Source of the DNA: Gaertneriomyces semiglobifer
Lineage: Eukaryota > Chytridiomycota > Chytridiomycetes > Spizellomycetales > Spizellomycetaceae
Assembly: GCA_025558075.1 (NCBI GenBank)
Contig: JAHLKF010000009.1
Coordinates: forward strand, 62,001 to 126,000
Direction of reading: 5' to 3'
Length of the DNA stretch: 64,000 nt
Shown: one piece after another, positions 27,295 to 60,955 of the stretch
Layout of the letters: each line of letters begins with the position of its first letter
How positions within the stretch are numbered: position 1 is the stretch's first letter
Notes under the pieces: generated by a model
Database searches by the model: none
Told to the model about the DNA's origin: nothing
The model's input: the letters and a program-made list of their open reading frames with translations, nothing else
Translations under genes and position numbers: made by a program

Positions 27295-29513
27295 ATGCGT
27301 GCGTGCAAGCTGTTGCCGGTGGACATCACATCTAACTTCACACTTGCCAGGCACGTATCACCACCGACAAACGCCAACAAGTCTACAGCCGTGGAGTCCA
27401 ATGGACGTATTTGCCGGGTTCTTCTTGGTGAGTATGAACATACCCCACCACCTTAGTTGCTCAATGCATGGCTTGCCGTGCTTGGGCTGCTCTGGCCCCC
27501 ACCCACCTAAGTTGCTCAATGCATGGCTTGCCGTGCTTGGGCTGCTCTGGCCCCCACCCACCTTAGTTGCTCAATGCATGGCTTGCCGTGCTTGGGCTGC
27601 TCTGGCCCCCACCCACCTTAGTTGCTCAATGCTGGCTTGCCGTGCTTTGGGTAACTCTGGCCCCCACCCACCTTAGTTGCTCAATGCATGGCTTGCCGTG
27701 CTTTGGGTAGCTCTGGCCCCCACCCACCTTAGTTGCTCAATGCATGGCTTGCCGTGCTTTGGGTAGCTCTGGCCCCCACCCACCTTAGTAGCTCAATGTA
27801 TGGCTTGCCGTGCTTTGGGTAGCTCTGGCCCCAGCCCACCTTAGTTGCTCAATGCATGGCTTGCCGTGCTTTGGGTAGCTCTGGCCCCCACCCACCTTAG
27901 TTGCTCAATGCATGGCTTGCCGTGCTTTGGGTAGCTCTGGCCCGAACCCACCTTAGTAGCTCAATGCATGGCTTGCCGTGCTTTGGGTAGCTCTGGCCCG
28001 TCCTCTTGCTAAGCGTTCGCGTTGAGCTTGCTGTCCAAACGGTATGGGAGCAGGACTGCAGTGGTCTTTGATCAGCAGCTAATGAAATGCTTTGTGGCCA
28101 GGCGTTCGACTCGGGTGCATTCAAGACATATTATCTAGCCCATACTACTTACTGTGTTATGTATATACGCCTGTTTGTCTAATATAGTCCCGTTCTTCCT
28201 CAATTCAGTGTTGCTGCCAAAGGAGAGCATTTACAGCTTAAGGTGACCTGGAGATCTGCGCAATTGACCTTGAAAAGCGTGGCAGAGGCTGTCCATGGCA
28301 AGTACCCCTTCCTCATTCCGGACTGCACTGTGAGCCAGGGCCAGACAGCGCGAGCTGCAATGTGCTTTCATTTCACCAATGAAAATGTGCCGGACTGTGT
28401 GGACACCATGACGCTGGACAATTGTATGATAAAGCTGACTTGGCCGAAGGTGCAGACCACGACAGCAGGACCTTCGGTCCCCAGAGTGTCCGCAACCCCG
28501 CCCCCAGTACCGCCCACCAATGTGACACATTTGGTCACGCCTTGCAAGCCGCTCGGAGGTCGGGCGCGGACAATGGAAGTGGAGGACACAAGTATAAGGG
28601 CCATAACGGCCGACTGGACACCCTGTATGACCGAACTCATCGACGGGTTGGTCAAACAGTTCCTAAGGTATGGCGAATCTGAAAACGGGAACCTGACCAT
28701 GGGGATTTGTGTAACTGTTGCGGCAATGGAGGGAAGCTGGCCCAAAGACCAGGACCATGCCAGCTTCCTGACTGCGGCAGTGGACCACTTCTCAACCTAT
28801 GCCACACTAACGGCGGTGGGGTCAGTGACGCCCCAGGATGGTGAACGCAAGTTCATCGTGGAAAACTTGTCACGGACCTTCATATGCCTCGAGCGCGTAA
28901 GGCAGATTGGTTAGAACGCCAGGCGAAGACTAGCCGGCACGCGACGTACCGATCGCTCTCTCGGGTGGCCGACGATACGTCGTCGGTCGTGACGTACCAG
29001 TCGTCAAACATGACTAGTGCGTGCACCAGCAAAAACCAGGCCCGTCATGACCTGGTGTTGAGCGGCATGGAGTTCACCACCAACTTACTGTTGGTCGAGA
29101 TCTCTGGCCCACCAACCACCGCGCAGGACCACCAGCATCCTGCCGAAGACGCCATCAAGCTGGAGCTGGAAGCCGAAAGGGTGCTCGTGTCGCGGCTGCT
29201 TCCCTATGCCCGGTTGCCCGCAAGCGTCTGCAGCCAGTTGTGTGTATTCACCCTGCAAGGTATTGGGAGCCGACTTACCTTGCATTCCCACAGCCTGACC
29301 GCCCGAGGCACCATCACTGTAAAAGAACTATACACCTTCCAGATTGCGTTCTCGCGCGTAGCAGTGGCAAATATTCGCAAGCAGTTTGTGCTGTGTTGGC
29401 TTCTGCGGAAGATTCTGATGGCAGAAACCACTGCTGAGGCCAAGGTCGCTAGTATTGATGAAGCGGTCGCAGGCGAACAGACGGTACGAGATTGGTTGCC
29501 AGAAACTGTATGA
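27295..29513 (+). CDS. Lineage-specific protein of unknown function
   Basis: Proposed exons 27295-27431, 28209-28896 and 29001-29513 give 445 aa with consistent phases. The second intron (GTAAGG...ACCAG) joins two long frames exactly in phase, which supports the model. The first intron (777 bp) carries a minisatellite and uses donor GTATGA, because the stronger overlapping GTGAGT would break the frame, so exon 1 is less certain. No known domain is visible. The N-terminal half has a Pro-rich stretch (about 130-155); the C-terminal half is helical, with LVSRLLPYARLPASVC and a Thr/His-rich beta-like segment. It has no sequence likeness I can see to its neighbours. It is probably a young or fast-evolving gene of the island. 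Confidence 0.5.
27455..28001. repeat. Ten-copy 55/56-bp minisatellite
   Basis: Units begin at 27455, 27510, 27565, 27620, 27675, 27731, 27787, 27843, 27899 and 27955. The core is AGTTGCTCAATGCATGGCTT. The first steps are 55 bp with TGCTTGGGCTGCTC; later steps are 56 bp with TGCTTTGGGTAGCTC. The array lies inside the proposed first intron of the unknown gene at 27295-29513. Confidence 0.95.
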
Positions 29514-29612
29514 CAAGGTTAGCACTAGAATCGCTTGACCGCCAATTTTCAATACATCTACAGATACCTTTTGGGCTTTGTCGTCGGAAAGCCTTCCAGT
29601 CGATATCTGCTA

Positions 29613-29867
29613 TTAGCAACTCGTAAAACCGTCAATTTCGGCGAGATTAACTAAGTGTGAATCTTCTGGGTCCTCTTCGCCCGCTTCACCGTCCGTATTG
29701 TACTCGCGCGCAAGGTGCGCCTTTTGATACTCTTCCCTCGAAGAAAACCCAAGAGCCTTAATCACAAACTCTGGAGGATATGCAGCGTGCGGACCGCTTT
29801 CGCGGTTTGTGGTGTTGGTGAATGTCCCGGACGGCATATCAAGCGCTAGAGGCGTGTTGGTAGACAT
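29613..29867 (-). CDS. Small acidic hypothetical protein
   Basis: A single frame of 84 aa starts at a true ATG (29867). It is hydrophilic, with a central FVIKALGFSSREEYQKAH segment that reads like a short helix-turn-helix-sized fold, and an acidic tail (GEAGEEDPEDSH). No family is recognised. The composition looks like real coding sequence rather than a shadow frame. It lies tail-to-tail with the unknown gene at 27295-29513. Confidence 0.45.
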   Translation of the reverse strand: MSTNTPLALDMPSGTFTNTTNRESGPHAAYPPEFVIKALGFSSREEYQKAHLAREYNTDGEAGEEDPEDSHLVNLAEIDGFTSC

Positions 29868-30136
29868 TGGTGGATTGATGGCGAGTCGCGGATTAGGAAG
29901 CGGCTCTATCGTCCCGGTGGTCTTTTGTTTTCCTCCTTATTTGTTTGTTGAAAAGAGGGACAGTCTGAGCCAGGCAGGCTGTTGTAAGGGGGTCCCGGTG
30001 ACATACGCGCTATGACATGGGTTCTTATCCATATCAACACATACACGTGCGTCATGTGTCCATGAGCACGTGACCCATGTGACTGGGTGCCCTAACACCT
30101 GGCACGTGATCTTTTCCGTCGGGTGGTTCTCTTATG

Positions 30137-30458
30137 CACCCCTAACCCTGCCGCACACCCAGCGGACCTACATTTTTCCCTCCCGTGGGACATGTCCGAG
30201 CGCATGTAAAAGGCATACCGTCAGACGTCCGACGTACATTTTCAGTTCGATCTCCGTCAGCACTCCAAGGCCATGATCTCCGTGGGACATCCAGCTTTGT
30301 AGCGTCAGAGCTCCTGCGGAGATCCTGTGGATGTGCGCCCGGATACCTTTTACCAGGGCATTCATCGGGGGTTCCCTGCATACTGGGTTTACCGCTGGAT
30401 GCTGCTTACACCGACAATAATATTGCATTATAATACAGCATCAGTGTTCATATACGTC
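30137..30458 (+). repeat. Left subterminal block X
   Basis: These 322 bp match 33874-34195 on the opposite strand with no difference that I could find. Identity stops exactly at CACCCC on the outside and at ACGTC on the inside. Confidence 0.92.
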
Positions 30459-30743
30459 CCCCCAGTTGGTTTGGAGAGAGAGCGGAGAGCGGTACGTACG
30501 CGCTTGGTCATCTAAGTCAGTGATCATTCACAGATATTAGAAAGCGCAGGTAACGCCAGTGATTATCTGGAGTGGTGAGTGGTCCATCCAGCAGAGACAT
30601 GTCACCAGTGCTAATTCGACATTTTTGTTTACTGAAACAGATCAAAAGTACATATAACGAGGAATTTTATGTAGACGAAAATACTCTGCGCGAGATCGCG
30701 AGGGAGAATCTAAATGGTCTTACGAACAGTCATCAATAGAAGT

Positions 30744-31713
30744 CTAGCTAGGAAGCGGCTTCATAGCACGAGTCGATTGAGAGTAGCCTGAAAAAGCCCG
30801 TGAGCATGGGCGCTTGTGACCGATGGTTTTGATCTTGAAACCTACGTTCAATGGCTTTATATCCGATTTTAGCTCTCCGCTTAGCACTTTCGCATTGTGG
30901 GCTGACTTGAGCGCCAGCAGGTTGCGCACGTCCTGGAACATCTTTAACTGTTTCACGTTTGGCTCATGTTTGGCCTACATGAAAAATACGGTGAGAAAAT
31001 CAAAAAGGATGGGCAGCACGGATCATACCTTGACTTCCTTCTGCTGGTGCCGTAGACCTTTTGCCAGATTCTCTTGCTCAAGCAAGCGTTTGTTATATAA
31101 TTCGCGATAACTCTTAAATCCTCGGCTTTTCTGTTGCTGCTCTAAAGCCTCATCCCCACCTATATATGCATTCATCTCCTGCATGACTGCACGTATCAAA
31201 CTTCCGGTTAACGTGATAGACCATAAGCAACTTCAATGTCGAGCCATCTACCTCGCTGCTGCGCAATATCGGCCATCTCAATTTGCATATTCAAATAATG
31301 AAAGCGGCTTTGATCATTGTCAACGTCCTGTCGACAGGCCCTCACCCCATGTTCCAATTGCATGACCTCGCTATCTCATGAAAGCACAACTGTGAGATCC
31401 ATGGCTCATGTAAGTTGAAGCGGGCAAACGTGCGATCTGACCTCTCTATTCCAGCCACGGTGGCATCATATAAGCGTTTCTTTCCGAACCCCACTTTCTC
31501 ACTGATGTCGACTGGTGCCCAAGGCGGGTAGATAGTGAGTTGTGTTTCGCAGCCCCGTTGTGGACAGGGATAACCAGCTTCGCGTAGATTCGCAATTTCC
31601 CTTGTGTTTGATGAAACTTCATAATCAATGCTCATCTTCTCCTGGAAGTCAGCATAGTCCATTTCTAGCTCCGCCGCCGCATACCGTGGTCGTTCCCCAG
31701 CGAACAAAAACAA
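30744..31713 (-). pseudogene. IFT81: IFT81 C-terminal fragment, frameshifted
   Basis: Exon pieces on the minus strand read like the C-terminus of IFT81, the IFT-B coiled-coil protein that helps carry tubulin into cilia. Landmarks are KKRLYDATVAGIE, then after a small intron QSRFHYLN, then EMNAYIGGDEA, then QENLAKGLRHQQKEVK and EPNVKQLKMFQDV. These match animal IFT81 segments such as SRYHYTN, DEMKAYISSD and QENLGKKLR. The calponin-homology N-terminus is missing, and near 31079 a one-base loss shifts frame between NKRLL and QENLA. The 5' limit is uncertain because sequence before about 31500 drifts away from the family. Introns at the old splice sites remain, so this is a DNA-level copy, not a retrocopy. 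Confidence 0.72.
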
Positions 31714-32070
31714 AGCTCTACCAAAAGTTCTTTCCGAGAAGCAAAGTTCTTCTTAAAAAAATATTAAAAAATAGCAAGCCTTCTAAACTAACAGGCAATC
31801 TGCCCGCAATCCGTTCTCTTGTTTTCACCAAACGAGACACTTACTTCCCAGATGATACTTCAAGACACTTATTTACGAATTGGAGATGACAATCCCAGAC
31901 CAGATTTGACAAATGGTGAAAGACGCTAGATAGGTCTGCTAAATAGAGACGGCGCCAGTATAGAAATTGTCGAAAAAAAAGTGTCTTTCGTTTGGGCATT
32001 TAAAGAGCGCCGGGGCCTTTTCAACCATGTAACGTACAACGATAATAGCAACTATTTTCTAGCAACCTAC

Positions 32071-33003
32071 ATGCCTACTTCTCCAGTTACAGAAGGATAT
32101 TACGCAGATAAACTTACCAATATGGTAGGTGTCAGGGTGATGAATCGACGTAGCCAACACCTTCCTAACGAGTGTTAGCTTGACTGCGAGGCGGAACCAA
32201 CCAGGTACACACCCTTTGACTTTTCCGAATCCATCAACGAGTACACCCTGGCCAGCATGCCAGAAAGAGTCTGGCGAAAAGTTGTCCGGGACCTTCAATC
32301 CCATCCTGACAAATACATCTCGCTTGTATCACGGTGCAGGTGTGACCGTGAATCGACAATCGTCTTTGATCTCGAAAAGGAAGCCATCACCGGGCCTATC
32401 GTTGATACACTGTCGCAGTATGGCGAACAGCAATGGAGGGCGACGCCCATTGTATCCTTCGTGGCCATCAAGTTGCTGCTACGCAAGTGGCACGATGGTG
32501 GGATTGTCCGCCCAGAAGCCATCGCGTCTCTACAGGGAGCGAAGCGTGCTAGAGGAAACGGGTTCCGGTATGTAATTCACTCACCTCTTTAGAGTGTTTC
32601 AACTAACTTTAAGGATAGGATTATAGTGCACATGCGCACTCCGGCGGATGCGGCCAAGCTAGTCGCCGACTTGAGAAAGACGCCACCACAAGGCACCGCA
32701 GGCGGCTGTTTCGGGAAGCCCGGGCTGTTCTTTGGGGTAGGAACAGTCTGGTTCTCAGGTCCCTTCAAGGAGCCCCAGCCAGAAACAACTACCGAAGGTG
32801 CGCCCTCTTCATCCTCAAAGAGGCGCCGCTTGACGGAGGTGTCGTTCCCAGCAGCCCTTCAAGTGAGGGAGCAGCTGCAGCAGGCCAATGTTGAGATGAA
32901 CGACAAGGAAATGATGGTAGCCGTGGCAGCTCTCAACATGGTGGGGCTCGATGCTATGGAGGCTTTGATTGCCGCCATGAGACGCATGGAATACTTGGAA
33001 TAG
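32071..33003 (+). CDS. Unknown 275-aa protein inside the element
   Basis: Three exons (32071-32124, 32179-32567, 32619-33003) give 275 aa; the phases fit at both junctions and all introns are GT-AG. No known domain is recognised. Features seen: a globular N-terminal region with RVWRKVVRDLQSHPDKY and FDLEKEAITGP, a helical middle (VSFVAIKLLLRKWHDGG), a Gly-rich turn (GCFGKPGLFFGVG), a Ser-rich linker with basic cluster SSKRRRLTE that could be a nuclear signal, and a helical C-terminus. A decayed partial copy of exon 2 lies at about 34998-35058. It is the only clearly intact gene between the element's ends. It has no visible transposase DDE/D signature, and its role in the element is unknown. 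Confidence 0.6.
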
Positions 33004-33283
33004 ACTGTTTCATAGCTCGGATAGATATAGAGGAAACCATGGCAATTACTAGAGTGACCGCTACATTCACAAATATACTAGAGATCTCGGGAACTCACAC
33101 TCTGTAGTTTGCTTTTAGGATTGTACTGGCTCGTAACGTTAACGTCCTTTTAATTTTGTCCCATGAACCGTCCAAGAGCTGATGCGGATGTACTGTCGAT
33201 CTCGATATCGTCCTAAGTAAGCCATATGCACAGTAGGCAGTATGCCATTGGCATAGCAGATTCTCAAGTTGAGCGTTTACATA

Positions 33284-34195
33284 CACCCCCAACCCTGCGG
33301 GATGTCCGACGGGAGTGCTTAGGTAATGGAGTACGTCAGTACATGCGAAGTTTTGTTCCCCAGCACATTTTGGCCGCACATTCAGAGAGCATACGCGGAT
33401 GCTCCTACGAAGGTACACAGGGATGTCCTGAAGGAGTCACGTCAATGTAGTCCCGCTACACATCCTTGGGGACATCCGTCGGAGCTGCTGGGTTAGTATG
33501 TGCGAGGGGACATTCACAAGGATCTGCGCTGCATGTCGACTCTGCGGAGATCCCCCGGACATCCGTCCGTTTGCCACGTCCGTTAGCAACGTCCGTTTCC
33601 ATGGCATTTGCCTCCCTCCAACAGTTCAACTCGCGATTTTCTTCCAAGTTCATTTTCCACCCAGAACACATCACGATTCCTTGTCGAGATCGCTGCTTTC
33701 CTCTTCCTCCAAACCCATTGGCTCCGCGATACCGTCTTCGATATCACCGAGACTCAGTATCCTCGGACATGGTTTCGGTGATATCGAAGACGGTATCGCG
33801 GAGCCAATGGGTTTGGAGGAAGAGGAAAGCAGCGATCCCGGCAAGGAACTGTGATCAAGGCAGTCATATCTTCGACGTATATGAACACTGATGCTGTATT
33901 ATAATGCAATATTATTGTCGGTGTAAGCAGCATCCAGCGGTAAACCCAGTATGCAGGGAACCCCCGATGAATGCCCTGGTAAAAGGTATCCGGGCGCACA
34001 TCCACAGGATCTCCGCAGGAGCTCTGACGCTACAAAGCTGGATGTCCCACGGAGATCATGGCCTTGGAGTGCTGACGGAGATCGAACTGAAAATGTACGT
34101 CGGACGTCTGACGGTATGCCTTTTACATGCGCTCGGACATGTCCCACGGGAGGGAAAAATGTAGGTCCGCTGGGTGTGCGGCAGGGTTAGGGGTG
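33284..34195 (-). mobile_element. 912-bp deletion derivative nested in reverse
   Basis: It begins CACCCCCAACCCTGC and ends with the inverse of CACCCCTAACCCTGC, with TA on both flanks (33282-33283 and 34196-34197). It consists of right block Y (to 33878) fused to left block X (from 33874), sharing five bases ACGTC at the junction. It lies in opposite orientation to the 7.83-kb element around it. It has no coding capacity of its own. Confidence 0.82.
33688..33837. repeat. 63-bp perfect hairpin
   Basis: Arms 33688-33750 and 33775-33837 are exact inverted copies with a 24-bp loop. The hairpin sits in subterminal block Y. The other Y copy (37457-37561) has lost 47 bp covering the loop and part of one arm. 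Confidence 0.93.
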
Positions 34196-34253
34196 TATAC
34201 ACGCGTCGGTCACCTGACATGGAACTATGATGACTGTGCCCAGCCAGTGAATT

Positions 34254-34282
34254 AACCCTAACCCCAGACCTGCATATAAATA
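34254..34282 (+). promoter_or_regulatory. AACCCTAACCCC motif followed by TATA box
   Basis: AACCCTAACCCC (34254-34265) is followed after nine bases by TATAAATA (34275). It lies just outside the nested derivative and upstream of the 265-bp duplication and the NDUFA6 relic. No intact gene now follows it. Confidence 0.4.
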
Positions 34283-34411
34283 GGCCGCGTGTCGGGCCTC
34301 TCGTTGAACACGCGTCGATCGAGGACACTGGCGTACGTACATATCGCTGCTCATGCTCACCCTGGATGGATGGACTTTGCAATAGGTGAGTGTTGTCAGC
34401 ATGAGGAATCT

Positions 34412-34930
34412 GTTGCATCCCCGCCGTCACTTTTCTTCATTGTCACATCTACCCTGTGGTATCTTCGGGTGTGTTGCCTTCGGGTTGCACACTGCTGGGG
34501 CCACTTGGTGCGGTGGCTTTCAACATCAGTGCCATGTGCGATGTGGATGCGCTGCTTTTGATGGTCTTTACCGCTCTTGCTGTTGTCCTCTGCCATAGAG
34601 ATCTTCGGGGTGTTCTACCTGCTGGGCTCTGTGGTACAGGCCGCTTGATCGCTTCAGACTTCTAGGAGGCATCCAGGTTGCATCCCCGCCGTCACTTTTC
34701 TTCATTGTCACATCTACCCTGTGGTATCTTCGGGTGTGTTGCCTTCGGGTTGCACACTGCTGGGGCCACTTGGTGCGGTGGCTTTCAACATCAGTGCCAT
34801 GTGCGATGTGGATGAGCCGCCTTTGATGGTCTTTACCGCTCTTGCTGTTGTCCTCTGCCATAGAGATCTTCGGGGTGTTCTACCTGCTGGGCTCTGTGGT
34901 ACAGGCCGCTTGATCGCTTCAGACTTCTAA
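34412..34930. repeat. 265-bp tandem duplication
   Basis: Copies start at 34412 and 34677 and run to about 34930. They are nearly identical, differing around 34556 versus 34815. The period is not a multiple of three. A splice-donor-like AATAGGTGAGTG sits just before copy 1 (34381-34392), so the pair may lie in an old intron. Confidence 0.88.
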
Positions 34931-34997
34931 AAGGAATCATGCTGACCACTCCCTTTTTTAGCCATCTTTCGCCCCGTATATATATATATAGGAAGGG

Positions 34998-35058
34998 CGA
35001 CCGCGCGAATCGACAATTGTTTTTGATCTCGAGAAGGAAAGCCATCATTGGGCCTTTG
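34998..35058 (+). pseudogene. Decayed fragment of the 275-aa gene
   Basis: About 60 bp closely match exon 2 of the unknown gene (32342-32398): GACAAT-GTxTTTGATCTCGA-AAGGAA-GCCATCA-GGGCCT in both. The copy contains an extra base within GGAAAGCC that breaks frame, and similarity ends abruptly. Confidence 0.6.
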
Positions 35059-35121
35059 TATTTTTTACGTTTGAATACAGTGACCCTATCGATGGTCTTC
35101 TTTGATATCTTGATAACTATG

Positions 35122-35597
35122 ATGGCCAATGGAACTTATCTGCAGCCCAGTCTCGCTAGCCGCAGTTACAGCAATCATTGCGCACCCTGTACCGGTACAT
35201 CCCCGATATCGTCGAAATGTACCGGTTGCACTTTCCTGTGTGGAAGGTGAGTGTTTGCGGTGGAGTTCGAAATGTAGAGTCTGGAATTATGGAGGAGAAC
35301 TTGGGGAAGGAAGAGTCGCGAACGTTGCTGTGGTCGGTTTTGCAGAGACCGATGTTCATTCAATAATGCAACTACCATTCCACACGATCTTTTGGCGAGC
35401 ACGGGAGCTATACATAGTTTCTTGCAACTGATGCGATCATTGTCCACCCTCAGGTCCGTCAAAGAATGCGCGAAGAGTTTGAGAAAAACGCACATGTCCG
35501 TGACCCGCAAGTAATCGATGTCCTCATCTTCAAAGGCCGCAACGAACTCGCCGAGACCCTTCAACAATGGAAACAGGACGATCACATCCAACGCTAA
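35122..35597 (+). pseudogene. NDUFA6: Decayed NDUFA6 copy (complex I LYR subunit)
   Basis: Two exon pieces (to 35246, and 35454-35597; intron with good GT-AG ends) read as the LYR-motif protein NDUFA6/B14 of mitochondrial complex I. Landmarks are RTLYRYIPDIVEMY, REEFEKNAHVRDPQV and WKQDDHIQR, matching family segments such as MKNAHVTDPRVVD and VWKQRTHV. Damage: the N-terminal part (ATG at 35122, PSLASRSYSN) is one base out of frame with the LYR part near 35175; the LYR helix is several residues short; and a stop at 35595 removes the usual C-terminal tail of roughly 20 residues. A functional copy should exist elsewhere in the genome. Retained intron structure argues for DNA-level capture. Confidence 0.68.
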
Positions 35598-37415
35598 GTC
35601 TCGAGATACCAAGAGGTTGACCGCAGGTACAGTGCTGCAGGTCACTTCTGCACCAACTAGGATTTAATAGTTTCGATTCCATTATGATTAATAAATATTA
35701 TCGTGAGAAAAGTATGTCGTACGGTAATCGTGTGGAACCGGCGTTTGCAAGAAAGCTGCTGGGTTCTTGAGGATGAGATGGCTATAGCCACAGGGACCGT
35801 TCGGGCAGTGTGGACAAAACGCTTATCCCCTGACTGAGAAACTTGCCCTAGGTTATGTTGCAATGCTATCGCTGAGGCGATGAGCAGGGACTTCTGATTG
35901 GTTTGCTCTCCTATCCTTGCCAATGACGGGATGCGCGTATGTCTGGGCGGTGGGTGCCGCGATGAGAACGGGCGTGCAATGAAATATTTGCATCAACAGA
36001 CTTTGCCTTCTGTTGAATCCTAGCGTTCATTAGACATTTACAAGACGGAGAAGCATTACGACCTCCCGAACTTCCGAAAGCGAGGGGCGTTGTTTTCAAG
36101 TGCTTAAAATGGCGCAAGACGAGAATATGATATGGATATCACACGCAAAGGAGCCAGGCACTCTATCTGGATGTTTCCTATATTAACAGATGAGATGGGT
36201 CAGAAGCATTACTTAGCTGTAAGAGTGCATAATGCTTGGGCGGAGTCAGGACAGGACAAACAAAAGCACCCCAAAACAGAATTAACTTACAATGAATATT
36301 CGGAACGCTAACCCAAAAGATGCAGGCAGCGATGTTTTTTACCATGGACCCATATTTAAACAGAGCTTGTCGATGTTCTGTCAAGTCCTGGTTGTCTGGC
36401 AAAGGCTGTGAGCGTGAGCAGCGGTAACCGCTCCAAGGCAAGCAATATGGAGTGGGCGCTCTGTGCTTTTGGAACCAAGTCGCCGCACGAGTGGAGACAA
36501 CTTCGGGTGTAAATGTCCGAGTGTTTCGGTCCTTGAGATGAAACTCCCACGTGACATACAGAGTGTTACGCATGGAATAGCTTCAACGGATATGCTGATC
36601 TGCAAAGAATATGAGAACGGGCCCTATCAGCAGCTGTGCCGAAAGAGCGCCGCATCATCCTGAGTGCACTCTTTATTCCCGGTAGTTCCCTCGATGGTTG
36701 TGAAACAGATTTATCCAGTAGATAATCCTCGTAAACAGCTTGTCCGACATACGTTGTGCTGCTGACAATGTCCGCAAACCTCGAAAGATGTTGCTTCGCG
36801 GGTGACCGGTCGATGCTGGGCGAATCTCCCCTTTCTCGTTAATTCTAAGGGAGATACATGCTCCTCAGGTGGGTCATGTGTACATTGCGAGGAAGCCGTC
36901 CACTGCCAACTTTGTGTTAGCATTATATATCAGCCAGAAGTGCTGACCATTTCTTGAACCATCAACTTTTGAATTACGTATTCCATATTTACAAAGAAAC
37001 GACGTGCTATATTTTCCTCCAGGTCGCAAGACAAAATGGAACCATATTCCCATGGTCTTTTTAAAGGTAAGTGTACGGTACCCAATGAATATGCTTTGGA
37101 CGTGTATCAATCCTGGGGTGTAGCCAAGGCACTCGCAACCCCGAAGTAGACAACCAAAAGGTTTTATTGGCATCGGACTTGTACTCATCCAGAAGTACAC
37201 TCGCTGCTTCGCTCCAAAGAGCCAACTGCTGTGGAACTGGGGCGAAGCGCGAAAAGGTTGCAATATGCGAGTAAGTTTTTTCTGGGGTGGACGGATCCTG
37301 AGTCGGTGCTACAAGTTTCGCATCGCTAGAGCGGGGCGATGTAACCTGGTAGTGATATACACCTGCATGTGCAATGTGAAGGCCACCTGTTGAAATTGAG
37401 TCTGGGGAGCTGCAG
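35598..37415. other. Element interior without recognisable genes
   Basis: Several frames of 60-130 codons exist on both strands, the longest on the minus strand at 36178-36573 and 36874-37263. None shows a family motif or a consistent multi-exon model. Some may be remains of further captured fragments too decayed to name. Confidence 0.4.
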
Positions 37416-37963
37416 ACGTCGAAGATATGACTGCCTTGATCACAGTTCCTTGCCGGGATCGCTGCTTTCCTCTTCCTCCAAACCCATTGGCTCCGCGATA
37501 CCGTCTTCGATATCACCGAAACCATGTAATGGGTTTGGAGGAAGAGGAAAGCAGCGATCTCGACAAGGAATCGTGATGTGTTCTGGGTGGAAAATGAACT
37601 TGGAAGAAAATCGCGAGTTGAACTGTTGGAGGGAGGCAAATGCCATGGAAACGGACGTTGCTAACGGACGTGGCAAACGGACGGATGTCCGGGGGATCTC
37701 CGCAGAGTCGACATGCAGCGCAAATCCTTGTGAATGTCCCCTCGCACATACTAACCCAGCAGCTCCGACGGATGTCCCCAAGGATGTGTAGCGGGACTAC
37801 ATTGACGTGACTCCTTCAGGACATCCCTGTGTACCTTCGTAGGAGCATCCGCGTATGCTCTCTGAATGTGCGGCCAAAATGTGCTGGGGAACAAAACTTC
37901 GCATGTACTGACGTACTCCATTACCTAAGCACTCCCGTCGGACATCCCGCAGGGTTGGGGGTG
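37416..37963. repeat. Right subterminal block Y
   Basis: This block is the inverse of 33284-33878, with 37528-37963 matching 33284-33719 almost base for base (one difference noted) and 37416-37527 matching 33767-33878. The offset between the two parts shows a 47-bp deletion in this copy. Confidence 0.9.
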
Positions 37964-38230
37964 TGCCGGGCAGTCAACTGTACTCTTAGAACCTTAGACT
38001 TGAATACACATAGGCTTATTATATATATAAGGACCAGAGCATCTGAGCATCAGCAGGATCCCTCTGCAACACACGCAAAGTACAATGTGCCACCTGTGAC
38101 CTGTGTTTGTAATACCCTAACCCTCGACTTGCTACGCGCGGCTCATAGCTTAACGTTGCGCATATTTTTTGAATTAATAAATACCATGATCTGCACTTAA
38201 GGCTCGTAGATAGTGGCTTGATCGTTGGGT

Positions 38231-38890
38231 ATGGGCGAAATAAAGAAGCGCTTCCGACATGCCGTGGAGGAACCGCAAAGGCGAAAGAGGCCTTTCACCA
38301 TTAAATTGGAGGACAACTCTGACCCACAATGCTGGTCCGAAAAAAGCCCAGCGGCTGTGCAAAACTGGCCGATTAAAGCAGAAGGGACCCCAAGTTCCAG
38401 CAATGACGAGAAACCCGACCCAGTATCCGATGAGCGCACCCGCCTAGGGACGCCAGAAACTACGGAGCTTAATTCAACGGCCTTGCGACGCCCACGAAGA
38501 GGTCCCAGACGTGCAGACGCCAGATTTATCGCTATGATGTGGGATGAGGGTGACAAGGTGGAAGTCAAGGGCAGGCTCATTGTGCTCCCATCTGAACCGC
38601 AACTGCTGCATGTCCGGTTACCTGTCCATGAAGGCCAAAGGGAGGATTTCACCCTTACTGTGAATAACAGCCTGCGAATGGTGTTGGATCTACCAAGCGG
38701 ACAGTTCAAGTTACAGTGGCCGAACGAGGATTGTGAATTACGGAGCGCAGACAATAGATTGCCCCATCAATACCACACTATCTCAGAGAATAAGCAGAGG
38801 GTTGTTGTTTTTTGGTCACAACCCGGCATGGGGCATTTCTTTTTGGAAGTTGCGCGAGATCTGCGCAATGCCGGTGCCGTCCTTGGTTGA
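38231..38890 (+). CDS. Hypothetical basic protein
   Basis: A single frame of 219 aa from the ATG at 38231. The N-terminal half is charged and disordered, with basic clusters (RRKRPF, RRPRRGPRR) that could direct nuclear entry. The C-terminal half reads as beta-rich (KVEVKGRLIVLPS, FTLTVNNSLRMVLDL). No family is recognised. A strong donor-like CAG-GTAAGT at 38905-38913 lies just beyond the stop in another frame, so the 3' end could be spliced differently. TATATATAA upstream (about 38013) could serve as promoter. It sits just outside the right end of the transposon. Confidence 0.42.
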   Translation: MGEIKKRFRHAVEEPQRRKRPFTIKLEDNSDPQCWSEKSPAAVQNWPIKAEGTPSSSNDEKPDPVSDERTRLGTPETTELNSTALRRPRRGPRRADARFIAMMWDEGDKVEVKGRLIVLPSEPQLLHVRLPVHEGQREDFTLTVNNSLRMVLDLPSGQFKLQWPNEDCELRSADNRLPHQYHTISENKQRVVVFWSQPGMGHFFLEVARDLRNAGAVLG

Positions 38891-39472
38891 AGTAGAGTTC
38901 TGCCAGGTAAGTATCTTCTTTGTCAGGACTGTTCAACACAGCATCTTAACACAACAACCCAAGGTCATTTTGCTGAAACCAAGTGACCTAATTTACGCTT
39001 CGACATCTCAACACAGCAACCCAAGGTCATTCGGGTGAATCAAGTAATCCAGTTCACGCTTTGACGCAATTTATCGCTATATCAATTGCGATTGCCAGTG
39101 AGCTGAGCGCGAACTGGCCTCTCCATTTCATGAAGGTTGTTTCCTCAAACAGGCCACAACGAAATCAGACGAGCCCATGATATAGCATGGCACTGCATCG
39201 CCGAGATGTCAGTTATCCTAGCCTTGCAAATCGTGCTGGGATTGGGGATAAAAGCGGTTTGCACGTCTTCATATCGAACGCGTGCGATTTCGCGCCGAGT
39301 GAACAGAGATTAGGAACACAGTGTTATCAGAAGAGGACTGAACTTAGTAAGATGTTAATTTTAGAGTCGTAGAATGTCTATACTACTCCTGCGCATTACG
39401 TTAATAACAACATCAAATTTCAACTGAAACCATTCGGGATATATCCGAGCTTTTACTATCGAAGAACAACCC
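38891..39472. other. Intergenic, right edge of the island
   Basis: An imperfect direct repeat (CAACACAGCA...CAACCCAAGGTCAT) occurs around 38935-39030. There is no supported gene. Confidence 0.4.
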
Positions 39473-39546
39473 GCCCTCTTGGCTCAGTTGGTCAGAGCGT
39501 CTGCCTAGTAAGCAGAAGGTCCCGTGTTCGAATCTCGGAGAGGGCA
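39473..39546 (+). tRNA. tRNA-Thr(AGT)
   Basis: A 74-bp cloverleaf: acceptor GCCCTCT/AGAGGGC with discriminator A, D stem GCTC/GAGC, anticodon stem TCTGC/GCAGA with loop CTAGTAA (anticodon AGT), and T loop TTCGAAT. The T stem CCGTG/CTCGG has one T-T mismatch. No intron. Confidence 0.93.
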
Positions 39547-40535
39547 TTTCACTTTTGCTGGTCGGCCGAAGGTACAACTGCCGCTTGGAGGGACCAAGGT
39601 AAGGTAAGGCTTGCTCGCCAAACATTGTGAAAGGGTGAGAAGCGACCCTGATTTTAATTTCCGGTGCATACGCATGCAGTGGTCATGTTATTACGATCGA
39701 CTTCATCCAGATCCATGTCCAGCCCAGACATCGTTGCACTGCGTGCGCAAGCGTAGGCATTGCATGCATTGGCGTGTTTCGCAATGGATCAACCAGAATT
39801 GCCCAATTGAGCTGAGAACGTGACTTGATCTTGACCAAGACTCCGCGGGATGCACACGCGCGAATTGCAGCCCGCAGCAGGGGCTGTTAATCTTCCGGAA
39901 GACCCACCCAAACACAACATTGCAAGACACCCCCACTTTATTTAACCAGGCCTCAGCTGACGTGACTCTTTCCAACTGTTTGGGGGAAATGAGTATGACT
40001 GACGCAGGTCATTATGGCACACAAACAGTAATAACCATAAAGGACCAATAGAATGAGCGTATTCTCATTGTATTCGATAAACGTTGTGTGCTTCCTGCTG
40101 TGTTTGTATGTGGGGTTTTTTTTTTCTTTTTCACACAATGACACACTGACCACACACCAGCTGAGCCATTGGCTGCTGCCGTGGGCACACACATAATAAC
40201 AAGTAATAATAAATGGGGCCGATCAAGTAATCGGTTAACAGCACCCCCCATCCAGTTATTACGTAACCGCGTTCGTTGCCCATCCACCGCAACTCGTTTT
40301 TTACTTTTTTCCTGTATACACACCCCGCATGCAGTCATCGCATTAAGTAACTGCTGTGTAATGGCACGCTCCCCCGATGCGCCACATGACGGCCCCGTGG
40401 CGCACACAATGGCGTCGTTCTTGTAAAAACACTCTCCGCTATCGCGTTGTCCGCGCGGCCGCCCCCTTTTTCCTTTGCGTCGTTTGTCGGCGTCGACTTT
40501 TTGTTAGGCTGCTGCTGGCTGCCCCCCCGCGATGG
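39547..40535. other. Intergenic, no gene recognised
   Basis: This is the spacer between the tRNA and the NmrA-like gene. It includes an (A/T) run near 40113-40133. No supported coding frame. Confidence 0.45.
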
Positions 40536-40543
40536 TATAAAAG
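40536..40543 (+). promoter_or_regulatory. TATA box of NmrA-like gene
   Basis: TATAAAAG lies 134 bp before the ATG at 40670, in an otherwise GC-rich stretch. Confidence 0.6.
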
Positions 40544-40669
40544 GGCGACCAGAGGGGGAGTGCCCCCTCCTGTCTCGATCGGTGTATTGTTCATTCGGTG
40601 GATTCACTACGACGCATGCATTTATAGTTTTCTTGATCCATTGCCATCCCTCCACACACAACTGTCACG

Positions 40670-41686
40670 ATGCCCGCCGTAACAAAGAAGGTTTCCACTG
40701 TCGTCGTCACGGCCTCGACCAATTCAACGATCGCCTCGGCTTTTCTGAACGCGCTCTCGTCCCAGCCTCGCCCCGAGACTCGCTCTCTTGCAATTAGCCT
40801 TGCGACAGCTGCGCAAGATGACACTGACAAGCTGCTTCAATCGACACACATAGATACGGTTGTCCTAATACCGCCCACACATGCAGACGAGGCGTCTCTC
40901 GCAAAGACAAAGGACTTTATTGCGAGCTGCTCCCAGTCCAACCATGTCGATTACATCATTCTCTTGAGCGCCATGATGAGCGACGCCGTCGAATCAAAGC
41001 AGAGAAATGTCAAGCTTACTCAGTTTGAGTCACATTACCTTGCCTTGGAGCGGTCACTTCGTCAATCGAGAATACCGCACACGATCTTGCGTCTGGCGCC
41101 GCTTCAACAGTCTCTTTTGTACCTCGACACCGGCTTTCACACGCATCAGGTTGCGACATTAGCCCTGCCCATCTCGAACGGCGCGTTTGCTCCCATCCAC
41201 GTCGACGATGTCGCGCGCGCGCTAGTGAGCATTCTCAACTCGCACAACTCTCCTCACATCTCAAAGACATACACCCTCACGGGGCCGGATTTGCTCACGG
41301 GAGTGGAACTTGCGGGCCGTGCTTCCGTTGCCTTGGATCGCCCTGTCAGGTTCCAACACACATCCCAACGCCAGCTGGATGACCTGGCACGTCAACACTC
41401 GCACCTCCCCATTCCCACATTATTACAAGTGACGGCATTGATCGCCAACTCGCGTTATACGACGCATACGGATACGCTTGCCTCGCTCATCGGCAGGACG
41501 CCCAAGTCGATTGACTACTTTTTCCGTGAGCATCGTCAGGATTTTAACAAGGACATCACGAAGAATGCTCCTTTGTTGGGTGGACGACCCAAAGTCCGTC
41601 AGGATGCGTTTAACGGCGAGCTCTACCGTGGCGCGTGGGGAGATGGATTGGGTCGGTACGCCATTTCCTTCTCATCCAAGCTCTGA
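40670..41686 (+). CDS. NmrA-like NAD(P)-fold protein
   Basis: A single exon of 338 aa from an ATG in good context. The layout is that of the NmrA/atypical short-chain dehydrogenase family: strand TVVVTAS, helix, TVVLIPP, a loop ending YIILLSAMMSD, PHTILRLAP, FAPIHVDDVARALVSIL and YTLTGPDLLTGVELA, all standard landmarks. NmrA-like proteins bind NAD(P) and act as redox sensors or quinone reductases. The N-terminal GxxGxxG cofactor loop is not conserved here (ASTNSTIA), so cofactor binding is doubtful and the protein may be regulatory. The C-terminus (SIDYFFREHRQDF) matches the family. Base composition is more GC-rich than nearby intergenic DNA, as expected for an expressed gene. Confidence 0.75.
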   Translation: MPAVTKKVSTVVVTASTNSTIASAFLNALSSQPRPETRSLAISLATAAQDDTDKLLQSTHIDTVVLIPPTHADEASLAKTKDFIASCSQSNHVDYIILLSAMMSDAVESKQRNVKLTQFESHYLALERSLRQSRIPHTILRLAPLQQSLLYLDTGFHTHQVATLALPISNGAFAPIHVDDVARALVSILNSHNSPHISKTYTLTGPDLLTGVELAGRASVALDRPVRFQHTSQRQLDDLARQHSHLPIPTLLQVTALIANSRYTTHTDTLASLIGRTPKSIDYFFREHRQDFNKDITKNAPLLGGRPKVRQDAFNGELYRGAWGDGLGRYAISFSSKL

Positions 41687-42552
41687 GAATTGCCACCGCA
41701 TTCTCTCGGCATTATATATATATAGTTTTACATTTTTGGATTTAATGTTTGTTTGGTTTCTTGTATTCCCGATCTCTTTTTGATGGAGAGCATCAATAAT
41801 ATTTTGACTTTCTTGCATGTTGCCTTGTGCATCGTGCTGACGCTGAAAAAGACCTTGTAATTGTTGACAATTCGTTGTGACGTTGACCAGAACCACAGGT
41901 GATGACGAGAAACGCATGGTTAAGGCCCTGCTGTCATTGCACTCGCAATTGCCAGAGACCATAAAGGCAACGAACACATTAAGACACCAACCATGTATTT
42001 CAAGCGACTTCTATATATGATATCTGGGCCCTATACAAGTCTATGATGCCACCAAAATGATCGTTGCGAAAAAGGGGACAAAAAGGAAACCAACAAAACA
42101 GAAAGAAAAAAAACAAAAAGGGGGCCTGAGGAAAATAAATCTGATCCCAACACCGCCGTGGGGAAAGGGTCGTGGGTCTCCCCTCCATCCATCTATTCTA
42201 TGCTCCAGATTAATCATTTCCAAACCCAACGAAAGACCCACGATCCCCATAGAAGATCAAATTCCCACCACTCAAAAAAGGCCAAAACAGAAATAGGAAA
42301 GATAATCCAAAGTGTGGGGGTGTGGTGGTAGTGGGGGCGGGGAAGAACAAAAGAAAGAAAAGAAAAAAGAGGAAACCCGTTCTCGGCGAAAGGGGAAGAG
42401 AACTAGTGCCAGCCCGCGTTCTCCCATTTGACTCTCGTCATTGAAAAAAAAAAAATGATCCAACTTAATCAACGTACGAAAAAAAAAAAGTGTGTGCGTG
42501 TGAGGGTGTTGACGTAGTTGGAGTTTTTCCGGTTTTTTAGTTGGTTGGGAAT
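41687..42552. other. Intergenic, A-rich and polypurine tracts
   Basis: Contains TATATATATA (41713), an A/G-rich tract (42060-42130), GAAAGAAAAGAAAAAAGAGG (about 42351-42372) and A runs near 42445 and 42480. It probably holds the 3' UTRs of the two convergent neighbours. No gene seen. Confidence 0.5.
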
Positions 42553-44750
42553 CTATTGCATCTTGCGACGTTCGCTTTTCGCGGGTCTCACGACGGTTCC
42601 TTCATCTTCTGAGCTCCAGAATACGCCTTCTTCTTGCTTGGTGTCAGCGGCACTCATGCCCATTTCGAGACCCATGCCGTTTAACGCAGCGAGGATGCTA
42701 GTTTGTGGCCGTTCACCGCCAAAGGTATTGTCGCTTTCGAACGAGTCAGGGAGAGAGTCCCGGGCCGGATTGTGCGCCGGGGAATAGGTCGACGACGATA
42801 TGAACGAGTCGCGGTATGAGTCGGACGAGAGGAGGGAATCGCGGGTTGTGCTGGACATGAAGGAGTCGCGGTACACGGTAGACGCCTCAGATCTAGACAT
42901 AGATGCGAACTTGCCCTCATCGTCGTCGTCATCCCCGAACTCGGCTTCGTTTTCCGTAGTGCGGTATTCGTCGGCGGTTTCATATTTAGACGCGCCGGTC
43001 CGGGCACTGAGCATTGTTCCTTGGCTGAATGCGCTACGACGTCTTTGGTTGGTGCCCTGGTCGGAATGGGCAGCATCAAGTACCGTGGCGCTTAAAGATT
43101 GAATTTTGCCATCTCCTTCGCCACCAATGAGGACGTCCATGACACTCCGTGGAACTACGACTTTTTCAATCTCATTTCGCTCTTTGCGCTGCAAGCTCAC
43201 ATCCTTCTCAGCTTCGCTGATCATCTTTTGAAGTGTCCCGTCTCCCATAGAACGCGTACCAATCTGGGACATTGAGTCCGAAGGGGTAAGGCTGCACGTC
43301 TGAGATCGCTCATTTTCCGCCAGGTCGGGAACTCCAGAGTCCGTAAAGATACTGGTATGATGGTTGAGTGCGTGAGTCCATGCTGACGGTTGATAAGTGG
43401 TGTCCCGTTCGTTGTACGTGTCCCGATTCTGTGCAGTCAGTGTGATGTCGGTGGCATTATCATAGATAGTATCGCGACTGGAGTCGTACATGGGCTCCGT
43501 AGCGGCACTGTCCCGGTTATGTGGCAGACGTGACTCGTCGGGAGTAGGAATGGTCGAGAATACTGCTTCGGATAACGATTGGCCCATACCAGTCAGCTCG
43601 GGAAGGTCGACGCGGGTGTACTCTGGACTAGTCGCCTGTTTCCGATCACCAGAGTATGCCATAGGAGGCGGCTGGGCATAGCCACCAGCTGGAGGCGGAT
43701 AAGCGACTGGCTCTCTGGATGGAGCCTCATTCATGTACGGGTTGTTAGCAGGCTGGCCATACGAACGAGCCGAGTAGGCGTCCGAATCAGGGCGACGTTT
43801 AGAGGCACCCGATGAGAATACACCTGGTCCATCACCCCAATCGCCTGACACAGGAGAGCGTGATTCATCCTCCTTTGAACGGCGGCGCATAAACAGGAAT
43901 CCACCTGCTGCAAGACCTGCAATAGCTACCACACCTGACACAATCACGAAAATCAAGTTAGAAAACGGACACGGAGCGCCTCAAGAAGATCGAGATAAGA
44001 ATCATTATAGTCGCACTTACCAACAGTGGCGACGATGCCAGCTACAGCTCCCTTGCTCATGATTTTTCCGGGCTTGGCTGCCTCCTCCACTTGAGCCGTG
44101 TCCGTGTTGGGTTTAGTACCAGGAATGGAAGGAATGTTGTTGTTTGGCGTTTTGGGAATGGTACTGGGTTGAGGTTGTTGAATAATTACCGTGGGCGCAG
44201 AGACGGTGGTGGAGACGGCGGGCCCAGCGGGGATGGGGACTGGCTTGTCATCTAGACCCTCTCCAGGATTGTTACCGCCATTGTTGTTGCCGGGAACTTC
44301 GGTAGGTTGCGGTCGCGGGCGAGGGCGAGGACGACCAGGTTCTCCAGAGGGCCGTGGCCGCGGGGGCGACGGGTTCAGCGTCTCAACGGGCGGGTCGACA
44401 TTGGTCGGTTCCGCAGTCGGCGGCTCGGTAACGCTACTGATAGGCGGTTGGCCGTCACTTGTGGGCTGAACAATACTAGTGGTTGGCAAAGAAGGTTCGG
44501 TCGGCTCAACAACCGTCGTCGCATCATCATCACCCACCGGTACAGGATCTGCGGTCACAGAAGGTTGCGAAGGCTCGGTTGGGTCTCCACTCGGTGCAGG
44601 AACAGACGGCGGGAACGTCTCAACGACCGATGGGGCAGGCGATAAGACCTCTGATGCCGAAGACAGTTGACGCCGGTAATGAGGAGACGCTCCCACACTG
44701 CTTGCAAAAGCACCGGCAAGCACCACAACGGACAGCAATGTCGCTCTCAT
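42553..44750 (-). CDS. Mucin-like single-pass membrane protein
   Basis: Two exons (44750-44021, 43934-42553) give 703 aa. Residues 1-21 are a signal peptide (LLSVVVLAGAFASSVGA). The ectodomain (about 22-230) is Ser/Thr/Pro-rich and nearly free of Cys, suited to dense O-glycosylation, with a Pro-Arg block (RPRPRPRPQP). One transmembrane helix (about 235-260, AVAGIVATVGVVAIAGLAAGGFLFM) is created exactly across the splice junction and is followed by MRRRSKED, a stop-transfer signal. The long cytoplasmic tail is Ser/Tyr/Asp-rich and disordered (repeated YRDSF, RDSL). The layout resembles fungal wall-stress sensors of the Mid2/Wsc kind, but there is no WSC domain, so the sensor role is inference. 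Confidence 0.72.
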
Positions 44751-45726
44751 CTCGGGCCGTTCTGTTCTCTCTCTGTCTCTCTATGTGCTATCTGCTTTTC
44801 TATATAATGGAGTTTTCACAATCATCACCCCAAGACGGGACGAGGAAATGAGGCACCGTCTAACCTCTCTCTCACTGTCTGTATGTCTCTGTCGACCTAT
44901 AGTAACTATATGATGATCAGCTTTTCATACCGCTATCAAGGACATGCCTAAAGGATGATAATGATAATAAGCATTAAAACTTTGCCTGTTTGGTGATCTA
45001 GGAGCCTTACCTCGTACGTCCTGGTGCTTCTGCCTTGCCTTCCTATGCGCTGCCTGCCGCTCTCGATCTCGCCCCTTCGCCCGCTTTTCCGGGGACTCTG
45101 TTGTTGGCCTGCCTTTGCGTTGTGTGTGTGTTGTTGTACTCGGACAACGCGAATTTTGGCCAGCCGTTTTCCGGGTGTTTCCCGTGCGGCTTGCCACTTT
45201 TTCCCACCCGCGGGTCACATAATTCATATATATAGGGTTATGGTTAACCCGCATATGATGAACACATATCATTAACTAATACGAGTGTTACTATTATCAT
45301 ATTATTATGTGTGTGCCTTGTGGCTCTTGGGGCCGCTCCTCCTTTTTCGCTTGTGCGAAGGAGGTGTCCGGGGGAAAGACAGAAAGGAAAACCTTTTTCT
45401 GCTTGTCCGCGCGGCCCCCGTTTCGGGCATCAGCCCTCCAGAGTCCAAACCGCAATGATCGAATGCATCATGGATTTTGGGAGCTTGCGTGATGGACACT
45501 GTCGAACGAGCCATTGCATTTTGGGGAATGGAGGCTGTCCACGCTCACACACTCGCGCCGTTCCTGATGTACGTCTAATATCTCACATCCAAAGACAACC
45601 TCCACACGAATGATGAACTCTCCACCGTTACAATGGAAGGCAGAAATAAAATATTATGGTTTGACATTCTAAAAGTGTGGGGTGTTTGTTGGTGACAAGC
45701 TGCGTCGCGTGTTAATATTTCGTCGT
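44751..45726. other. Intergenic, promoter of mucin-like gene
   Basis: CT-rich tract (44760-44790) and TATATAATGG (44810) lie just upstream of the minus-strand gene. The rest has no supported gene. Confidence 0.45.
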
Positions 45727-45800
45727 GCCCTCTTGGCTCAGTTGGTCAGAGCGTCTGCCTAGTAAGCAGAAGGTCCCGTGTTCGAATCTCGGAGAGGGCA
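45727..45800 (+). tRNA. tRNA-Thr(AGT)
   Basis: Identical in all 74 bases to the copy at 39473-39546, including the T-stem mismatch. Flanks differ, so it is a dispersed copy, not a recent segmental repeat. Confidence 0.93.
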
Positions 45801-46712
45801 TTCAAGTTGCTTTTTTTGGCCACGTCTTTACCGCCCAGTCATTTTCACTCTGAAGGTGTGCAGATCTATCAGTCCAAGACTTCCAGTATCCAAACAACAT
45901 CGCATATTATTCGTATTGTGTATCTATGCCCTCTGCATGGAAATTCCCTTCTGGGAATATTCGGGCTGCTGTTTAATTTCCCGCGATGCTTCTCGCGCCT
46001 GAACATTAACGGAGGAAACGTTCATGATAGGAAGGGCTTACTCAATCTGAAACTAAGCACTGAAGCTGAACCCGCTCCGGAGAGCACCGCCCCCAAGCAT
46101 GAATAAGCCCGAATGGACTCACCGTCGGACCATCAACATTTAAGCGTCGTGCAGCAATTGGAACTGTGAACAAGTGAGTTGAAAGGTTGTGAATCGGACT
46201 GCAAGATCGTGTTTCTTTCATGTGTCGTCATTATGGTTCACGAAAAAGTCAAAAATCGAAATGCGCGGCAGCGGATGAATGTCCGCCGGCGCGGGCAGCG
46301 GGTTGCAGCATATGAACACCCTCTCACCTACACGTATTAGGCTTCACACATGCCAGTAGACTAGCACCGGATGCTTTGCTGGTCTCTGCCCGTGGCATAT
46401 GAAAAGGGCATACCGCTTCGGCGGACCTAGGTTCAGTCTCAAAGGGGCTTCAATCAACCGTTCGACGCGCGCGCGTCACGGTAGTCGGCCGGAATTTAGA
46501 ATTTAAGATCGGTTGATAAACTCACAACCGCCATCATGCTCAAAGACGCGGGAAACCAGCGGGGGTTTGTTTGCATGGGAAAGGGGGCTATGGCCGCTAT
46601 CATCATGACAAAAGCAGTTGAGAATGACGAGGATGGAATTCGCATAATGATTTCAACGACAAGGCGGGCGCATGATGTCAATCATTGTGGCCAGGTACAG
46701 GGCTTCTCGGGG
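45801..46712. other. Intergenic, no gene recognised
   Basis: This is the upstream region of the 'allergen'-like gene. Short frames only; none with a motif. Confidence 0.45.
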
Positions 46713-60443: not shown

Positions 60444-60517
60444 CGCTCCCGGGCAGGATCGAACTGCCAACCTCCTGATTAACAGTCAGACGCGCTAACC
60501 AATTGCGCCACAGGAGC
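60444..60517 (-). tRNA. tRNA-Asn(GTT)
   Basis: Identical in all 74 bases to the copy at 51862-51935 but on the other strand. The 3' flank shares GTTCATTTTT with the first copy and then diverges. Confidence 0.92.
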
Positions 60518-60955
60518 TGTTGCTCTATCGTTATGCACATATTTTACTAATTCTATCGTTGGCGCAAACTCTACCCGCTATATTGGTCGCATACAAGATT
60601 TTGCAACAACGTAAGATTTTGAACCTTTGTTACAGTCAACTGCGTTTCTACATCCAAAAGCTAGTTACAAAAACAATTACACATGCAAAGGGAATATAGT
60701 AGCCAACCCAGCATCCTCTCTACTAAAACGAACCTACAGGTCTGAGAGCGAGACCATCTACGCCGAGGTCATCCCAGACCGAGTCCTTCTCGCAAAGTCT
60801 AGATACAGTGAAAGGAACTCTGCCAAGGTAACCATAAAACACATGGGACCAAACGTGAAGTACATAAAAAGAACACAGATCGTGTAATCAACAAGATGCT
60901 CTCTACGCCAGTTGGGTTCGCAAATCGCTTTGGCGCCGAGTCGCCCGCATTTTCA
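60518..60955. other. Intergenic before RhoGEF 3' end
   Basis: No supported gene; a short plus-strand frame (60627-60887) has no motif. Confidence 0.4.

Follow-up and report, generated by a model that had tools for sequence, protein, structure and literature searches.

A CMCT-type miniature transposon of the chytrid Gaertneriomyces semiglobifer interrupted in place by a mosaic of gene pieces, with the uninterrupted form on a second contig

Gene capture by DNA transposons in fungi has already been published: in Pyrenophora tritici-repentis transduplicated gene sequences are found inside hAT and Tc1/Mariner elements present in many copies (PMC3538342). The Pack-TYPE elements of plants, including Pack-CACTA, are non-autonomous CACTA-like transposons with gene pieces between their ends; the pieces match resident genes, and their capture is explained by fusion of neighbouring elements (PMC8903248, PMC13317346), while according to a 2026 review an alternative, yet undiscovered capture mechanism may exist beside element fusion (PMC13317346). 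In wheat, breaks next to transposons are filled with gene-bearing sequence copied from fragments of the host genome (PMC3445842). ESTA and other fungal transposons of the CMCT clade, described from rust fungi, combine CA..TG-type ends and 2-bp, mostly TA, target duplications with a transposase of the EnSpm/Transib/RAG1 kind (PMC12730594). No chytrid case of gene capture by a DNA transposon was found in the open-licence literature searched. Here we describe a locus of Gaertneriomyces semiglobifer (Spizellomycetaceae), a soil chytrid fungus, in which a non-autonomous CMCT-type miniature inverted-repeat transposable element (MITE) sitting in a solo long terminal repeat (LTR) was subsequently split, at its existing site, by some 7 kb of mosaic DNA flanked by a duplication of 5 bp. 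The locus occupies positions 29980-38071 of a stretch of 64,000 nucleotides (the window), which corresponds to positions 62001-126000 of contig C9 in an assembly of 20.86 Mb in 66 contigs. An earlier note, made from the sequence of the window, had read positions 30137-37963 as a single CACTA-like transposon carrying pieces of host genes.

The locus shares with the plant Pack-TYPE elements a non-autonomous, CACTA-like structure with gene pieces between terminal repeats and a target duplication; it differs in that the pieces were inserted inside one element, with a 5-bp duplication and without capture by fusion, are unlike the resident genes and occur in an enlarged element of which no further, moved copy was found in the assembly. 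With P. tritici-repentis it has in common gene sequences inside a fungal DNA transposon, here a single-copy CMCT MITE with an uninterrupted form beside it. Gene-bearing sequence would fill a break as in wheat, but the identity between the inserted DNA and the resident loci is no more than 71-85%. The likeness to ESTA, in a chytrid instead of rust fungi, consists in the ends, the duplications and the kind of transposase. The apparent novelty lies in a before/after pair at one site for a chytrid CMCT element, together with a cargo unlike the resident genes.

The other member of the pair is contig C53, in which this locus has its MITE uninterrupted. Positions 1-3823 of C53 equal window positions 28679-30458 joined to 37416-39463, with zero mismatches over 3,823 bp, and the two MITE halves of the window, joined without the duplicate ACGTC, reproduce the 865-bp copy at C53:1459-2323 at 865 of 865 positions, which makes 30459-37415 an insert of 6,957 bp bordered by a duplication of 5 bp. 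The left half (block X of the earlier note; 30137-30458, minus strand) corresponds to positions 912-591 of the complete MITE, and the right half (block Y; 37416-37963, minus strand) to positions 595-1. The 5-bp overlap is ACGTC, whose left copy lies at 30454-30458 and whose right copy, at 37416-37420, opens the right half; it is single in C53. In the other aligned copies, and in relatives of about 80% identity, the MITE sequence continues through the break point without interruption, hence the cargo is the insertion and the MITE is not the cargo's remnant. Further along, C53 accompanies the window with 100% identity over 37964-45963 (two extra bases in C53) and 99% over 58001-64000, while a search with the 6 kb to the left of 28679 gave no match on a second contig save for two short stretches (C36, C46). 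C53 looks like a second haplotype contig, and both versions of the locus, filled in C9 and uninterrupted in C53, are present in one assembly.

The region 30137-37963 is consequently a nested structure and not one transposon, the order from outside to inside being solo LTR, 865-bp MITE, 6,957-bp insert and a complete 912-bp sister MITE at 33284-34195 (plus strand; TA flanks at 33282-33283 and 34196-34197). The presence of four terminal-repeat matches in the window instead of two already marked it as compound. The reading as a single unit was thus given up: both ends belong to a single MITE split in two, and a second MITE lies within. Finding blocks X and Y elsewhere had been named in the earlier note as an argument against such a unit, and they proved to be the two parts of an ordinary MITE that is also present, complete, at several other places. 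The Pack-type assignment holds insofar as gene pieces lie between the ends; capture followed by landing does not agree with C53, where the MITE is uninterrupted and has identical flanks.

The target of the outer MITE was a solo LTR, whose left part (29980-30136, plus strand) ends with TG at 30135-30136 and whose right part (37964-38071, plus strand) starts with the second TG at 37964-37965. Joined with a single TG, the two parts align across the junction with two other solo LTRs of 277 bp (C9:508268, C47:12024), both of which read CTTATGCCGGGC, with one TG where the window has TG-MITE-TG. The TG on the MITE flanks is therefore a true 2-bp duplication, and the empty site with a single TG, for which the earlier note had proposed a comparison of strains, was found in LTR paralogs rather than in another strain. 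The window LTR is itself flanked by CAGGC and CACGC, agreeing in four of five bases. The two paralogous LTRs in turn each split a MITE, at C9:508268-509457 (L056) and C47:12024-13216 (L041), with 5-bp duplications GGGAC and GGGTT; since these LTRs lie inside MITEs and the window MITE inside an LTR, the two families nest both ways.

The 15-bp terminal repeat occurs exactly at 30137-30151 (plus) and 37949-37963 (minus), at the outer ends of the two halves, and starting at 33284 (plus) and ending at 34195 (minus) in the nested MITE, i.e. four times in the window, compared to an expectation of 0.19 derived from 100 shuffles. Genome-wide, it was found with at most one mismatch at 38 places (17 exact), compared to one place for a reversed control pattern. 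The repeat, CACCCCTAACCCTGC, includes the telomere-like string CCCTAACCCT, and CCCTAA repeats are also present near one end of contig C57. The MITE, its central hairpin excluded, has five occurrences of the subterminal motif GGACATCC, a number reached in none of 300 shuffles. The terminal repeat, the TG flanks and the subterminal repeats of the earlier note are thereby all real. A genome search with 33284-34195 gave complete MITE copies of 911-912 bp at C25:71732-72642, C2:903298-904208 and C6:168461-169372, besides the window copy itself. Outside the central region the inner and outer MITEs differ by one substitution, fewer than either shows against the C25, C2, C6, C9:508268 and C47 copies, and this near-identity suggests local transposition or conversion between the two. 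The center of the nested MITE is a hairpin formed by an 84-bp inverted repeat (33670-33855), and the place corresponding to the break in the outer MITE is 18 bp away from it. The hairpin loop occurs in two opposite orientations, one shared by the copies in the window, C25 and C2, the other by those at C6, C9:508268 and C47, as if it flips.

Narrow-sense CACTA/EnSpm elements have ends reading CACTA. The ends of the present family are CACCCCYAACCCTGC, beginning with CACCC, which departs from the narrow-sense type and agrees with the CAC..GTG (CA..TG) ends of the CMC/CMCT elements. Both ends with their flanks could be read at ten element loci: eight had TA/TA, one, the outer MITE, had TG/TG and one CA/TA, which falls within the 2-5 bp of CMC/CMCT target duplications and matches the EnSpm-like type with TA duplications represented by ESTA. 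A full copy with a CMC transposase, which the earlier note had proposed to look for, has its counterpart in full-length relatives of 5.9-6.5 kb that encode a transposase. Among the chains ranked by Foldseek and compared using VIA-align, its predicted fold was best matched by RAG1 and next by HzTransib, and the protein contains a CxxC motif (CRFC; the C(2)C feature), conserved acidic residues and conserved histidines near the CxxC (GHRHIPVEILH). In CMC/CMCT transposases, motifs of the forms C(2)C and H(3-4)H stand between the second D and the last E. No family was recognised by Pfam in the transposase frames, and when the transposase alignment was compared with the sequences of solved structures, the best hit was a splicing factor (E 0.027); the relatedness to RAG1 and Transib was visible in the fold only. 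With a RAG1/Transib-like predicted fold, CA..TG ends and 2-bp duplications, the family would belong to the CMCT group, so that the earlier CMC assignment probably holds in the wider sense, while the narrow CACTA ends are missing.

The cargo (30459-37415) consists of a mosaic of gene pieces and the nested MITE. Its ends, CCCCC..CTGCAG, have no terminal inverted repeat above chance, the longest match of 6 bp being reached by 139 of 300 random pairs, and the longest direct match between the 60-bp ends is 4 bp, nor do they read TG..CA as in LTRs; an LTR-type insert was ruled out by this lack of terminal direct repeats above chance. No transposase or integrase family was detected by Pfam in nine open frames of the interior (a tenth piece with stops was left out), in line with the absence of a recognisable transposase already noticed. 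No second copy of the cargo was found in the assembly, the large form of the element being single-copy. In the genome search its left part matched, besides itself, only the IFT81 region on C1 (71%), and its right part matched C5 (85%), C6 (73%) and C19 (85%). The pieces resembling the C5:33113-34763 locus extend over 36099-37408, including an exon at 37064-37339 (minus strand), and this homology reaches within 7 bp of the cargo end, with no element border there. Two tandem units of 262 bp, 98% alike (34412-34938, plus strand), are 73% like C6:337447-337911.

The IFT81 fragment reported earlier is present at 30761-31482 (minus strand) as the last five exons of the gene, with four GT-AG introns, the upstream part being cut off; its splice sites and stop codon are intact. 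Next to it, at 30641-30718 (plus strand), a further gene is represented by a 3' coding piece; this gene is the one facing IFT81 in the resident locus on C1, the only IFT81 locus in the assembly besides the cargo. An origin of the cargo from complementary DNA was ruled out by the retained introns. For the codon comparisons the gap-free exon blocks were used and less alignable parts were dropped. In 151 codons, cargo and resident IFT81 differ at 18, 6 and 75 first, second and third positions, and 132 amino acids are identical; the non-synonymous divergence (dN) is 0.079 and the synonymous one (dS) 1.17 by YN00, while NG86 is saturated. Each of the two is identical to Spizellomyces punctatus at 100 of 150 residues, and in the tree they are sisters with support 100/100. 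When polarised, the 20 amino-acid differences fell into seven on the cargo side, six on the resident side and seven ambiguous, the last difference being an exon-border effect and two resting on split outgroups. In a crude simulation with unconstrained decay over 10% of the cargo branch, none of 200 runs stayed free of stops with so low a number of changes at the first two codon positions, compared to 35 of 200 runs matching the pattern with no decay phase. The protein search with IFT81 gave no protein of Gaertneriomyces sp. JEL0708 among the best 120 of 145 matches. The cargo exon starting KKRLYD continues in frame into an upstream open stretch unlike IFT81, forming a chimeric frame of 123 amino acids at 31342-31713 (minus strand).

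Of NDUFA6, two exon pieces are present at 35202-35588 (35202-35249 and 35454-35588, plus strand), the downstream part being cut off. The identity of the resident gene was confirmed, and over 61 codons the cargo differs from it at 4, 1 and 19 positions of the three kinds, with dS of 0.5-0.9 by two methods; the piece noted earlier is thus present, and its supposed decay is not borne out by this pattern. The third-position excess in both genes indicates divergence as working genes and not as decayed copies. To judge from it, the IFT81 and NDUFA6 pieces evidently come from genes that were working until shortly before they were cut, either in another genome or in copies that have since disappeared. 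A derivation of the pieces from the resident genes by recent copying or by decay was ruled out by the 71-85% identity and the mostly third-position differences.

The intact gene of unknown function (BC832DRAFT_592354, P0138; 32071-33003, plus strand, first codon placed on the window sequence) that the earlier note had seen encodes 275 amino acids; a short scrap of a second copy follows at 35004-35042 (plus strand). Paralogs in the G. semiglobifer genome are 31-57% identical, and resident relatives lie near the C5 and C6 matches of the cargo. Its one other match in the protein search was HDU85_005276 of Gaertneriomyces sp. JEL0708, a genome compared here through protein searches only. Against the window reading with the intron included, 236 of 244 residues are identical (97%), with one stop in the cargo's intron, while the gapped protein comparison with P0138 gave 220 of 244 with 17 gap positions. 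Beyond residue 244 HDU85_005276 and the cargo gene differ, and the tail of the former is similar to sequence lying between two elements on C47. By protein similarity, JEL0708 evidently has something very close to the unknown-gene part of the cargo.

We consider it fairly probable that the MITE was interrupted in place by a staggered break which was filled with DNA from a diverged source. The 865-bp MITE had inserted in the solo LTR with duplication of TG; according to this account, a staggered double-strand break would then have occurred close to the central hairpin and been healed by joining in either several fragments or one piece already mosaic. The genes of the filler would have diverged from the resident ones while still functional, in a related Gaertneriomyces-like lineage or in a diverged block since lost from the genome. 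A staggered break together with a diverged filler would explain the 5-bp duplication, the repeat-free ends and the mosaic, and the family's own transposase was probably not the inserter of the cargo, because family duplications have 2 bp and that of the cargo 5 bp. The enlarged element, which has both terminal repeats, could in principle be moved by a partner transposase. The more specific claim, that several kilobases of DNA originating in another chytrid lineage entered, in place, a MITE of the RAG1/CACTA-like group and turned it into a potentially mobile chimera of foreign gene pieces beside its uninterrupted form, is quite possible, if still short of probable. Several observations weigh against a diverged source or the before/after pair. 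The cargo donor sequence was not found. There is no foreign signature, as the cargo without the MITE has 48.4% GC compared to about 50% in the flanks, and the third-position GC of IFT81 is 55% versus 53%. The third-position excess is weak in the C5-like exon (70 codons, 4/3/12, dS 0.2-0.27) and not clear in the IFT81-neighbour piece (26 codons, 7/6/12). The 97% identical gene in common with JEL0708 fits vertical inheritance as well as transfer. C53 could be a (recent) duplication and not an allele, and its lack of the insert would also suit an assembly fault that put unrelated sequence into the MITE; the latter is very improbable, since such a fault would not be expected to produce a clean duplication of 5 bp in a MITE unbroken in all other respects, and the cargo gene is annotated in the deposited genome on a contig of equal length.

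The intact terminal repeats and the TG/TG flanks around the whole 7,827 bp are what a Pack-type CMC transposon would show if it had captured gene pieces elsewhere and landed as a unit with a TG duplication, yet this is improbable given the 865-bp MITE at the same place and with the same TG flanks in C53, the additional 5-bp duplication bordering the cargo and the lack of another large copy in the genome searches. The second MITE inside might recall the published Pack-TYPE model, with two adjacent MITEs losing their inner ends and fusing around the DNA between them, but such a fusion is hardly conceivable: the overlap of the halves is exactly 5 bp, they flank one another across one LTR target that has a single TG duplication, and together they match the one copy that is uninterrupted in C53. 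It is unlikely that the cargo is an unrecognised mobile element which jumped into the MITE: the clean 5-bp duplication, a length also produced by the LTR elements of this genome (GGGAC, GGGTT), would agree with it, while the absence of terminal inverted or direct repeats above chance, of other copies and of Pfam transposases or integrases in the scanned frames disagrees, and the retained introns speak against cDNA. The filled form might also be the older one, with C53 arising by exact loss of the cargo via the 5-bp repeats, which long inverted repeats within the locus could bring together, or by repair from another MITE; no donor cargo copy being left in the assembly would accord with this, but one more, exactly precise, event is required, and even then an intact MITE must first have taken up the insert, which makes such a loss rather unlikely. 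A doubtful possibility, though one to be taken seriously, is that a block long resident in the genus, also present in JEL0708, was moved into the MITE, so that the cargo would not be DNA of another lineage. The 97% identity of the unknown gene in JEL0708, the uniform composition and the resident relatives of this gene near the C5 and C6 matches are in its favor; truncated IFT81 and NDUFA6 pieces should, however, have decayed if long resident, and strong constraint is seen instead.

Elsewhere in the window, six tRNA genes scoring 65-67 bits are located within 21 kb (39473-60517), and a strong match to M36 fungalysin metallopeptidase was found at 53223-54605 (minus strand).

Since an uninterrupted and a filled element occupy one site and are otherwise alike across 3.8 kb, direct tests can be made of the junctions, of the sequence of events and of where the cargo came from, and the pair gives a view of how DNA transposons may pick up unlinked gene pieces. 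If the source was another species, the locus would represent a route for gene pieces between chytrids; transposons would then serve as places where DNA from other species can land, captured in a way distinct from element fusion.

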